From the NCBI GenBank assembly GCA_028699155.1, contig JAQVVD010000003.1, forward strand, positions 1 through 64,000: a stretch of DNA of 64,000 bases, in the 5' to 3' direction. The notes beneath the pieces were generated by a model that ran no database searches, was not told the DNA's origin, and saw only the letters and a program-made list of their open reading frames with translations. Of the stretch, positions 34,441-62,830 are shown one piece after another (position 1 is the first letter of the stretch; the number at the start of each line of letters is the position of its first letter). The position numbers and the translations under genes were made by a program. This stretch comes from Candidatus Peribacteraceae bacterium. GTDB taxonomy: Bacteria > Patescibacteriota > Gracilibacteria > Peribacterales > Peribacteraceae.

Positions 34441-34515
34441 GAGTGAGTAGTGGCTAGTGAAAATGTCGTACTCATCACTAACCACTCACCACTACTCACT
34501 ACTCACTATTCACTG
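34441..34515. repeat. Inverted arrays of 7-nt repeats (GAGTAGT / CACTACT)
   Basis: gagtgagtagtggctagtga ... tcactaaccactcaccactactcactactcactattcactgc. Confidence 0.85.
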
Positions 34516-35580
34516 CAATTTCCTCCATTCCTCCATGAGTTCCTTCTCCTTGCGCGAGAGCTTCTTGGGGATCTCCACCTGCACCGTCACATAGTGGTCG
34601 CCGTGGCGTGAGCTGCTCAAGACCGGCAGTCCTTTCCCCTGCAGACGCAATACCTGCCCGGGTTGCGTTGCATCGGGAATCCTGAGCGTGACGGGGCCGT
34701 GCACTGTCTCCACCGAGACTTCCGTGCCGAGGATCGCATCGATTGCAGGAATCGTAATTGAGGAACGAATGTCTTCCCGCTCACGCTCGAAACGGTGGTC
34801 GGGTTTGATGCGTATGTGCACGAAGAGATCTCCCGCGGGAGCACCCTGCCGCCCCGCTTCTCCCTCGCCGCGCACGCGGAGCGTCTGCCCGTCATCGATG
34901 CCCGCAGGCACATCGACCGTCACAGTGGTTTTTTCCTCTTTGCGCCCTTCCCCGCCGCAAGCGGAACACGGCGTTTCCGGCACTTTGCCGCTCCCTGCGC
35001 ATGCGGGACACACGACGCTCTGCTGGATCGTACCGAAGAATGACTGAGCAGAGCGGGTGACCTGCCCGGTACCGCTGCATGTGGAACACGTAACAAGTTT
35101 TGTCCCTTCTTTCGCTCCGGAGCCCCCGCATGCGCCGCATGTGTTCTGCTTGCGCAGTGACAGCGCGTGCTGCGCTCCGTGGACAACATCCTGGAGCGTG
35201 ATGATGAGTTCCACTTCCATGTCGCTGCCGCGCCGGTCGCGCGCCTGCTGCCTGCCTGCCCCCTGCCCTCCAAAGAAACTCTCGAAAATGTCGGAAAATC
35301 CTGAGAAATCCGCCTGATTGAATCCGCTGAATCCTCCAAACCCTCCGCCGCCCGGTCCGGCTGAGCCGAACTGGTCGTACATCTGCCGCTTCTTCGGATC
35401 GTTGAGCGTCTCGTACGCCTCGTTGATCTCCTTGTAACGCTGCTCCACGTCTTTATCCCCCTTATCCCCCTTGTGCTTATCGGGATGGAACTCTTTGCTC
35501 AGGCGGCGGTATGCGCGCTTGATCTCCTCCTGCGTCGCAGAACGGCCTACCCCCAGCACTTCGTAGAAATCCTTTGCCAT
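34510..35580 (-). CDS. dnaJ: Chaperone DnaJ
   Basis: MAKDFYEVLGVGRSATQEEIKRAYRRLSKEFHPDKHKGDK; four CxxCxGxG zinc motifs. Confidence 0.97.
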   Translation of the reverse strand: MAKDFYEVLGVGRSATQEEIKRAYRRLSKEFHPDKHKGDKGDKDVEQRYKEINEAYETLNDPKKRQMYDQFGSAGPGGGGFGGFSGFNQADFSGFSDIFESFFGGQGAGRQQARDRRGSDMEVELIITLQDVVHGAQHALSLRKQNTCGACGGSGAKEGTKLVTCSTCSGTGQVTRSAQSFFGTIQQSVVCPACAGSGKVPETPCSACGGEGRKEEKTTVTVDVPAGIDDGQTLRVRGEGEAGRQGAPAGDLFVHIRIKPDHRFEREREDIRSSITIPAIDAILGTEVSVETVHGPVTLRIPDATQPGQVLRLQGKGLPVLSSSRHGDHYVTVQVEIPKKLSRKEKELMEEWRKLQ

Positions 35581-35640
35581 ATGCGAGCGGCATTCTAGCG
35601 AGGGATGGCGGGGAATGCCATTTTGTGCTATCATATTCTG

Positions 35641-36708
35641 ATGTTTCTGCAGTGGAATCACCACCATGCGCAACGCCTCACGGGGTGGGCAACACTATCG
35701 CTTGGCATCGTCTTTACCGCGCTTGTGGGATACGGCGCTCTGCAGGGGGGAGTGGGGAACGAAGATGAGCAACTCGCGGCGCGCCTGCTCCCGGCGCACA
35801 TGCGCGGGGAGGTGGAGTGGAAGACGATCAGCGCAGAGGATGTGGATGAGGGAGCCACGGTTCCTCCGCATGTGAATGTGATCTTCCACTTGCCGCTGGA
35901 TATGGAACGCACCACGCGCAAGGTGCTCCTGGGTCCCAGCGGTCAGACCGTGCGCTACTGGGGATACTGCTTCCCGGAGAGCATGGCCGACGAGGACAAT
36001 GCGAACACATGGGGGCTCCCTGGGAAAATCTTCCTCTCGGAAATGGAACAGACGAAAGTCCAGGAAACGCTGCAAGCCAACGAGCGGGAACGTTTTACGA
36101 CTCCCCGCGGTTTCACGGAGGAAACGTTTGAGGACGCAAATAGCATCCGCGGAATCATCCGGCACCAGAAGGAAGTATTCGAAGCGGGTGAAACGTGTTA
36201 CCTCATGACGGAAGAAGTGCTGCCTATCGGAACGGATAACGACAAGGATGGCGCGAATTCCCGCGTGGAGAAACAGTACAAAACCCTCCCCTACAATACA
36301 GATACGGATGGAGACGGCATCGTAGACGGGCTCGAAATTTACGGCGGAACAAACCCCCTCATACGCGATAGTGACGGGGACGGCATCATCGACGGTATTG
36401 AGGACAAGAACCAAAACGGCCGCATAGACTCCGGTGAGACGGACCCGAGGCTCTGGGACAGCGATCGCGACGGGCTGTGCGACGGGTACTGCGTCGTAGA
36501 TTACAGCGCGCGCACCGGCTACAGCGCTCCGCAGGGATTTACGCCGCAGCAGAAGACCAAGTACGTGTACTGGGAGGATAAGAACCTCAACGGGCAGCTG
36601 GACGACGGCGAGACGGACCCCCTCAACGCAGACACGGATGGGGATGGAGTTCCGGATGACATAGAATTCTACCGTTGCTACATCACGAAAGAGGATGATT
36701 GCAACTGA
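35641..36708 (+). CDS. Membrane-anchored protein with Ca-binding (thrombospondin type 3/EF-hand-like) repeats
   Basis: NTDTDGDGIVDGLEIYGGTNPLIRDSDGDGIIDGIEDKNQNGRIDSGETDPRLWDSDRDGLCDG...NADTDGDGVPDDIE. Confidence 0.85.
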   Translation: MFLQWNHHHAQRLTGWATLSLGIVFTALVGYGALQGGVGNEDEQLAARLLPAHMRGEVEWKTISAEDVDEGATVPPHVNVIFHLPLDMERTTRKVLLGPSGQTVRYWGYCFPESMADEDNANTWGLPGKIFLSEMEQTKVQETLQANERERFTTPRGFTEETFEDANSIRGIIRHQKEVFEAGETCYLMTEEVLPIGTDNDKDGANSRVEKQYKTLPYNTDTDGDGIVDGLEIYGGTNPLIRDSDGDGIIDGIEDKNQNGRIDSGETDPRLWDSDRDGLCDGYCVVDYSARTGYSAPQGFTPQQKTKYVYWEDKNLNGQLDDGETDPLNADTDGDGVPDDIEFYRCYITKEDDCN

Positions 36709-60389: not shown

Positions 60390-60425
60390 ATAGAAGCCGC
60401 ACGCGTTCCCGCATGCGGCTTCTAT
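60390..60425 (+). terminator. Hairpin after metK, AGCCGCACGC family
   Basis: ATAGAAGCCGCACGCGTTCCCGCATGCGGCTTCTAT. Confidence 0.7.
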
Positions 60426-60466: not shown

Positions 60467-62830
60467 ATGCAGATGAATGAGCGTGTTCCACGTACACCGG
60501 AATCGGGTGCATTCGACCCGTATCACAAATGGCTGGGCATTCCTCCGCAGGAACAGCCGCCCAATCATTACCGCCTGCTGGGCATCCCCCAGTTCGAGTC
60601 TGATGTCGATGTGATTTCACACGCCGCCGATCAACGGATGGCGCATGTGCGAACGTTGCAGGTCGGCAGGCATAGCGGCCTGTCTCAGCGCATCCTCAAT
60701 GAAATTTCCTCCGCACGGGTATGCCTGCTCGATGCGGGCAAGAGAGCCGTGTACGACACGCAATTGCGAAAGAAAATCCAGCGACAGGAGTCTCCCCCTC
60801 CCGCGCCCTCCGTTCTCACTGTAGGACCGGAGGTTCCCGCGATCTCTCCTGCAGCGCAGCGCCGCATCGAGCAGCAACAGAGGGCGGCACGCAGCAAGAC
60901 ACGCAACTGGCTGATCGCCGGAACACTAGGAGCCACTGTGGCTGTCGGCAGCATAGTCGGGTGGGTGCGCAGCAGGGTGGGAGGTCCGGAGGAAGAGAAG
61001 AAGCCCGCAGCTGCCAAGAACCTCTCTCAGAAAGAAGTGGATGCGGTGCGCGGGACTACCCCCGCTTCTCCTGCACCCCTCCCGGAAGAGAAGCCCCGAA
61101 TGAGGAGACCGGTACTCGTGGATATGCCGCAGGCACAAGCGCAGGATCCTAAGCAGGAACAAGTCGCCAGCCTTCCTGTTCTCCCGGAGCTTCCGGCGCT
61201 GCAGGAAGAGGAGCCGCAGGAAGTGGTGGAACCCCTGCCTGTTCCTCCTCCTGTTACAGATCCGGTAGTGCACGCTGAGGAAGGACAGGGAGAAGAACAG
61301 AAAGCGCAAGCAGAGCAGCAGTTCAGGCAGGCTGTCGGAGAAGCAATGACACGACTCAGCCCCGCGTACGTCAGTCTCCCCCCACAGAAGATTCTGGAGG
61401 GAGCGACGGGGGAACAGGACCCCGTGCTGCGCACCGCGCTCTTCGGCGTGGCTGTGCAGCAGGCAGCCGAGGATGGAGATACGGCGACCATGAACGATGC
61501 GCTCGCGCAGATGCAGCACGCAGGAGAGGAAGAAGGGCTGACCGCGCAGGATGCGTTCTTCTTCAAGCTCGCCACCATCCGCCGCATTGCCAACCCTCAC
61601 GGGCTCAATGCCATGGACGCAACGAAGCGCATGGCTCTGGCGCAGGATCTCTATGACAACTGCATCCCGGAGGCGTACAGGCAGGAGAACCTGGCACTTG
61701 CCAGAGAGCTGCGGGAGCTGGCTCTCCTGGGGTGTCTGAATACGGTGATTCCCAATTCCTTCCCGGCGAGCGGAAGAGTGGAGAGCACCGCTGCACTCAT
61801 CCAGCTGCGCAAGGCGTTGATAGCAGAGGAGAAGAAGCAGAAGGAGCTGCAAGGTCTCTACGATGCGCATGCGGCAGGATTGGATGCCGATGGGGAACCG
61901 CTGACCCCGGATGCGGAACGGAAGACCGGACTGTGGAAGATGTCGATCGGCAAGTGGGAGGAGGCGCTCGTGCACCTCATTCGCTCAGGAGATCCCATCG
62001 TGGCACGAGCTGCAAGGATGGAATCTGACGCACCGAAGCAACCTGCAGAACTGCTCGCCTGCATGCAGGCATGGATGGCGGCAGCAGAGAGCGATCCGGA
62101 GTATGCCAAACAGTGGTACGAGCGTGCAGCGGCGATGGTGTACCGTGCAAAGCAGCTGGGACCTACGGGGAAGATGGGACTGGATGTGACGACGGCGGAA
62201 GCGGAGCTGAAGAGGAGGGGGGTGGGAGAGACAACAAATAATCCGAGTAATTCGGATAAACCTAATGTGAAACCACCTGATAAGAATTGGACTCCGGTTG
62301 ATCTATCTAAACTGAGCGGTAAAGGTTTTACTTCTAGAAATAATGAAAATGTACTTTTGGCCCTTGGCTCACCTGTCAGCACAGAATTTATTCCAACAAA
62401 TAGCTACGAATTAGCAATGAAAATTACATTGAAAGGAAAAAATTATTTTGGGATTCATTTGCCTGTAGGCAATAACTCCGTATGGGTCCTTTTTTATGGT
62501 GGGAGCTCTAGACATGCCCTGTCTAAGGTACATGTTAATGGTCAAATGACTAACATCATCGCAGACGAACAGAATGAAACAAGAATCGAAACTGGAGAGA
62601 AGGTGGATATTAAAATCAGCGTGATTTACACGATGAACAATCGGACAGTATTCACTACCATCACCGTTTTTGTCCAAGGCAAGCAAGTGTTAGAACACAC
62701 TGCACCCACTACTGCTTTTGGTGTTTTACATGAGCACGGATGGAAAGATGCAAAAGGAATTGCATTCATGCAACATAGATCAACTATAGAAACCAACATC
62801 GACTCAGTGATGTTTCGCATCGTTCGATAA
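60467..62830 (+). CDS. Planctomycete-like modular membrane protein (J-like YHKWLGIPP N-terminal module, TM, large extracytoplasmic region)
   Basis: FDPYHKWLGIPPQEQPPNHYRLLGIPQFESDVDVISHAADQRMAHVRTLQVGRHSGLSQRILNEISSARVCLLDAGKRAVYDTQLRKK; TM at WLIAGTLGATVAVGSIVGWV. Confidence 0.9.
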   Translation: MQMNERVPRTPESGAFDPYHKWLGIPPQEQPPNHYRLLGIPQFESDVDVISHAADQRMAHVRTLQVGRHSGLSQRILNEISSARVCLLDAGKRAVYDTQLRKKIQRQESPPPAPSVLTVGPEVPAISPAAQRRIEQQQRAARSKTRNWLIAGTLGATVAVGSIVGWVRSRVGGPEEEKKPAAAKNLSQKEVDAVRGTTPASPAPLPEEKPRMRRPVLVDMPQAQAQDPKQEQVASLPVLPELPALQEEEPQEVVEPLPVPPPVTDPVVHAEEGQGEEQKAQAEQQFRQAVGEAMTRLSPAYVSLPPQKILEGATGEQDPVLRTALFGVAVQQAAEDGDTATMNDALAQMQHAGEEEGLTAQDAFFFKLATIRRIANPHGLNAMDATKRMALAQDLYDNCIPEAYRQENLALARELRELALLGCLNTVIPNSFPASGRVESTAALIQLRKALIAEEKKQKELQGLYDAHAAGLDADGEPLTPDAERKTGLWKMSIGKWEEALVHLIRSGDPIVARAARMESDAPKQPAELLACMQAWMAAAESDPEYAKQWYERAAAMVYRAKQLGPTGKMGLDVTTAEAELKRRGVGETTNNPSNSDKPNVKPPDKNWTPVDLSKLSGKGFTSRNNENVLLALGSPVSTEFIPTNSYELAMKITLKGKNYFGIHLPVGNNSVWVLFYGGSSRHALSKVHVNGQMTNIIADEQNETRIETGEKVDIKISVIYTMNNRTVFTTITVFVQGKQVLEHTAPTTAFGVLHEHGWKDAKGIAFMQHRSTIETNIDSVMFRIVR

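Follow-up and report, generated by a model that had tools for sequence, protein, structure and literature searches.

We propose that P0001, a protein of a Candidatus Peribacteraceae bacterium, is probably a Planctomycete-type modular membrane protein whose architecture, anciently derived from Planctomycetes and since reshuffled, likely serves as a receptor or adhesin. Its gene lies in the window, by which we mean the whole 64-kb stretch analysed here (contig C35), and its parts succeed one another as J-like module, membrane span, proline-rich linker, helical GKW ectodomain and beta domain (Table 1). The reading frame is open from an ATG at 60413, translation likely begins at 60467 (MQMNERVPR...), and the stop is at 62830; the N-terminal and GKW segments that had first drawn attention to it are both found in it. 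P0001 matches nothing above cut-off in Pfam and NCBIfam and nothing in PHROGs. A patchwork protein of planctomycete build in so small a CPR bacterium, itself probably a symbiont, speaks for an early exchange of genes between these groups, and it offers a concrete case of cassette-wise surface-protein evolution within a 1.2-Mb genome.

Table 1. Features of P0001 and of two reference genes, in window coordinates
Feature	Position	Strand	Evidence or role
Genuine DnaJ with intact HPD	34510..35673	-	The genome's sole DnaJ-family match over cut-off; contrast to the J-like module
metK (S-adenosylmethionine synthetase), directly upstream of P0001	59203..60363	+	Pfam; anchors the contig in the CPR lineage
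P0001, mosaic membrane protein, 787 aa	60467..62830	+	ORF calls; full-length homologues in the same taxonomic family
J-like module, residues 13-105	60503..60781	+	Identity, structure model, Foldseek against PDB J domains, HPD absence
Single predicted transmembrane span, residues about 148-167	60908..60967	+	Hydropathy scan; segment common to three paralogues
Acidic, proline-rich linker, residues 187-285, 18% Pro	61025..61321	+	Composition
Helical ectodomain, residues 286-586, GKW motif near 488-516	61322..62224	+	Planctomycete-only HMM, model, tree
C-terminal beta domain, residues 587-787, in low-GC cassette	62226..62830	+	GC; low-confidence beta model

The planctomycete character of the protein is clearest at its N-terminus, where the 91-residue J-like module is up to 73% identical to Pirellulales proteins, so that the planctomycete-type module claimed by the sequence-only reading is indeed there. 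The module is also typical of Planctomycetes, as that reading had it: all 10 relatives of P0001 found in a peptide scan of 84,980 species genomes belong to Planctomycetota (the scan used exact P0001 peptides, making it strong for close and weak for distant relatives, and phyla other than those searched by profile were covered by this pattern-limited scan only), the module occurs in each of 10 planctomycete genomes chosen via the matches, in 1-9 copies, and 19 of 119 genomes in a phylum-wide sample carry it. There it is joined to Ser/Thr kinase, FHA, WD40, LamG and C-type lectin domains. Several planctomycete proteins (L010, L141, L140 and L146 among them), of a family without a Pfam model match for either module or ectodomain, have the order seen in P0001: a FDPYHKWLGIPP J-like module, one span, a proline-rich linker, a helical GDW/GKW region and a C-terminal binding domain. 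The suspected likeness of the GKW segment to planctomycete proteins proved to be real homology, since an HMM built from planctomycete ectodomains only finds residues 276-563 of P0001 at E = 9e-11 and all ten Peribacteria proteins that reach the ectodomain at E = 3e-18 to 6e-7 (Z = 10,000 throughout), no shuffled decoy (20 were made per CPR protein) scoring better than E = 0.83. By HMM and hydropathy, P0001 thus carries the helical GKW/GDW ectodomain after one membrane span; residues 286-586 are helical in the structure model, with weak matches to TPR-like folds. On profile comparison, the order of J-like module and helical GKW ectodomain is homologous between Planctomycetota and Peribacteria.

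The C-terminal tip is a different matter: several planctomycete C-termini can be recognised as LamG or C-type lectin domains, whereas that of P0001 matches neither by sequence (hhalign probability against planctomycete LamG 0.2-1.7%) and is low in GC. At position 62226 the GC content drops from 0.61 to 0.39 (likelihood-ratio statistic 89), and the stretch from there to 62830, encoding the last 200 residues, is the GC minimum among 600-bp stretches of the window. By composition, the foreign-looking piece of P0001 is therefore this tip and not the J module, because GC falls there and the GC3 of the J module is normal for the window. A similar drop occurs at residue 606 of the paralogue C11b, and the C-termini of the two are not recognisably alike; among homologues, GC declines mildly towards the C-terminus in G022 and not at all in G219 and G028. 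No relative of the cassette was found in Pfam, solved structures, viral contigs or phage records. Residues 587-787 gave a low-confidence beta model with weak matches to sialic-acid-binding, laminin-G (LG) and galectin-like folds.

How the architecture came to Peribacteria can be read in part from three paralogues in this genome, P0001, C11b (L021:11291-13780) and C11a (L021:1-1497, truncated by the contig end). In the J-like module, P0001 and C11b agree at about 95% of nucleotides, but C11a at only about 50%; the membrane segment is conserved in all three (about 80-90% identity); and downstream of it C11a and C11b resemble each other closely (about 90% in nucleotides), P0001 having about 25% amino acid identity to them. 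From these alignments the three genes are mosaics with sharp breakpoints. Nearest relatives also differ by segment: Pirellulales (73%) for the J module, and for the ectodomain Peribacteria G022, with which it shares 25-34% identity and groups at 99/97 support. Synonymous codons between the J module of P0001 and its nearest planctomycete counterpart are near saturation, so the transfer is not recent relative to that donor. The sequence-only reading had suggested inter-phylum transfer of a complete architecture, and this holds in part: the planctomycete-typical module, the shared order of J module, span and GKW region and the patchy presence in one CPR family all speak for it, whereas movement as a single unit is not supported, given the divergent affinities of J module and ectodomain and a 39%-GC C-terminus without demonstrable sequence relation to planctomycete LamG.

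Most forks stay open in trees of the 91-residue J module, which were run with and without long branches and none of which settles the number of transfers. P0001 and C11b join a Pirellulales module with support of 86/11, 93/49 or 77/31 depending on sampling, hence weakly, and a single clade of CPR J modules is not rejected by the AU test (p = 0.21, 0.41 and 0.23 in three samplings), nor is a single clade of CPR ectodomains (p = 0.39). These tests are what keeps alive an alternative that we consider unlikely yet worth retaining, in which one ancient whole-gene transfer was the only event, the J module of P0001 and C11b evolves slowly and the differences among paralogues are rate effects; it sits poorly with the breakpoints and the abrupt change in GC within the gene, which together show exchange of segments, and with the different nearest relatives of J module and ectodomain. 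We favour the reshuffled architecture, which would have been an early acquisition of the Peribacteria lineage from Planctomycetes, persisted in a minority of Peribacteria lineages and later recombined at three joints (J-like module, membrane/ectodomain and C-terminal tip). The donor-like J module of P0001 may then be slow-evolving or a later domain-level import. The distribution, rather than a rooted tree, is our ground for taking Planctomycetes as the donor and Peribacteria as the recipient: presence is wide and in multiple contexts in Planctomycetota, whereas it is patchy in Peribacteria.

This patchiness is apparent at each level. With a full-length profile the architecture is recovered in 9 of the family's 74 genomes (G201 among them), and with the J-like profile the module in 9 of 353 class genomes, one of which, G048, is weak (E = 1e-4). 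Weak family matches, with E-values of roughly 1e-4 to 1e-6, covered profile positions about 24-97 in frames that were mostly 200-735 aa long; they were judged ordinary DnaJ proteins by size and position only. The J-like profile search at phylum level (287 genomes) gave three matches outside the family, in G597, G401 and G481, the first two being ordinary DnaJ proteins by sequence. The third, L074 (G481:C12), comes from another family of the phylum: a J-like protein of 226 aa, diverged and with a hydrophobic span at its C-terminus, it is the sole credible relative of the J-like kind that turned up beyond the Peribacteria family. We discount the carrier G201, since on its contig C82 ligA is 94% and the J-like gene 85% identical to G219, yet its FtsH is only 69% identical; C82 is likely binning contamination or an inter-genus transfer.

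Where present, the gene keeps its company: it lies beside or one gene from ligA in G016, G028, G201, G216 and G219, and it adjoins an ftsH-PMT-GT2 block in G022 and on contig C11 of the present genome. On this gene order, the J-like/GKW gene is an old resident of the Peribacteria family because its neighbours are conserved there, either patchily kept or repeatedly moved; mapping the carriers onto an FtsH tree takes no fewer than five changes between presence and absence. The homologues (G022, G016, G028, G216, G217, G219 and G198) mostly resemble P0001 in length and architecture, although G016 has lost a recognisable J-like module, and their J-like modules have diverged much further (about 44% for G022, lower for the rest), in contrast to the donor-like module of P0001. 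Within Patescibacteria the architecture is patchy and limited to this family. It could be asked whether the common ancestor of Patescibacteria and Planctomycetota already had the architecture, which was then lost nearly everywhere else; the conserved neighbours and the deep divergence of most copies would fit, but we find vertical inheritance improbable given the very many losses needed to explain absence from nearly all of the class and phylum genomes and a scan that returned Planctomycetota only. Three genomes encode large FAD-dependent oxidoreductase-like proteins (1144-1265 aa) adjacent to the J-like gene or in its vicinity (L069, L072 and L073; Pfam-checked in L069 only).

What does the protein do? 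The module has a J-domain fold: it was modelled with a mean pLDDT of 93.5, and solved J domains top the list in a Foldseek search of the PDB, at probability 1.00 though with E-values no better than 0.05. This fold is what it shares with canonical J-domain proteins (DnaJ, HscB, CbpA), from which it differs by the absence of HPD and of a Pfam DnaJ match and by an extra N-terminal FDPYHKWLGIPP segment. Positions Y5, W8, L9, I11, P17, Y21, L73, Y82 and D83 are invariant in alignment A3, and P0001 fits throughout, following the pattern FDPYHKWLGIPP...YRLLG...LLNE...YD, with an N-terminal FDPYxxWLGI segment and then the YRLLG, LLNE and YD positions. A role as a functional co-chaperone, anchored in the membrane and able to recruit and stimulate DnaK, would have the fold in its favour, as well as a weak Pfam DnaJ match spanning the full profile in the relative G216; we reject this role as quite improbable because HPD is found in none of the 65 J-like modules examined, P0001 included, while the genome's own DnaJ retains it. 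For the same reason, the J-like module probably serves as a cytoplasmic docking domain, and not as an Hsp70-stimulating co-chaperone, within a receptor or adhesin of the cell surface whose tip can be exchanged. The N-terminus is probably inside the cell because a basic stretch precedes the membrane span in the hydropathy scan. We hypothesize that this one span anchors P0001 while the proline-rich linker carries the TPR-like ectodomain outward, where the exchangeable, lectin-like beta tip would bind a ligand or a neighbouring cell surface. The protein would most likely function as a receptor or adhesin at the cell surface.

All of this presumes that the gene belongs to the genome in which it was found. 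Absence of ribosomal protein uL30 is a hallmark of CPR bacteria, and uL30 is missing from all 20 genomes searched (this one and 19 relatives), while 13 of 14 controls have it. With an assembly of 1.18 Mb, the earlier impression of a CPR-like genome is therefore confirmed; a curated complete Ca. Peribacteria genome from Lake Fargette measures 1,239,242 bp (PMC9040852). The contig of P0001 is native to the CPR genome, judging by the adjacent metK, which is 84% identical to that of G022 and 73-79% to those of most other family members; contig C11, which carries the two paralogues, also encodes a single-copy FtsH 82% identical to that of G022. Contamination by a planctomycete contig during assembly or binning, for which one could invoke the 44 contigs, the estimated contamination of 1.6% and the 73% planctomycete-like J module, is rejected as extremely improbable in the face of these native genes and of homologues in independent genomes of the family, the single-contig G028 among them.

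P0001 is not the only planctomycete feature of this genome: a second hallmark is provided by Planc_extracel proteins (PF07595, LEPLEDR), although these form a protein family other than that of P0001. Contig C11 encodes (L021:2746-6504, + strand) a protein of 1252 aa that combines two LamG domains with a VanY/M15 peptidase domain and carries a planctomycete LEPLEDRCMLSA N-terminus; it begins MDHRNRRLSMEPLEDRCMLSA after an in-frame upstream start and matches Planc_extracel below cut-off. The last 600 bp of this gene are also low in GC (0.40-0.44). Across the family, the N-terminal motif is found in 12 of 74 genomes at E <= 0.001, four of them over cut-off, and in one of 14 controls, sub-threshold. 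It occurs in 6 of 9 J-like carriers against 6 of 65 other genomes (Fisher p = 0.0003, a value that ignores shared ancestry and includes the doubtful G201).

Viral sequences may have had a part in spreading the module. Two viral contigs (L216:452-1342 and L217:2968-3645) encode a J-like module with 60-64% identity; L217 also encodes a phage portal protein and a ParB-like protein, and the genes next to the module on L216 look phage-like but match nothing in PHROGs. Searches of plasmid and phage records for the J-like module came back empty. A phage route is possible.

To our knowledge, the hosts of most CPR lineages, Peribacteria included, are unknown, and the literature searched holds no description of a J-like/GKW protein family in CPR. 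A partnership with Planctomycetes has been hinted at: Jaffe et al. proposed from co-enrichment that Planctomycetes interact with CPR bacteria (PMC9040852), and in a groundwater study a Planctomycetes organism was co-abundant with several CPR bacteria (PMC7906910). The shared surface-protein architecture and the second hallmark motif would turn this hint into a testable prediction. We therefore raise, as a speculation that is rather unlikely to be right as a whole, that some Peribacteria are episymbionts of Planctomycetes that took surface-protein parts (J-like/GKW and LEPLEDR-type) from their hosts, possibly via phages, and whose swappable tips recognise or mimic the host's surface. In the single-contig Peribacteria genome G028, a LEPLEDR-like N-terminus precedes an open frame reported as 14,636 aa (L209, G028:C1:206392), possibly a giant surface protein.
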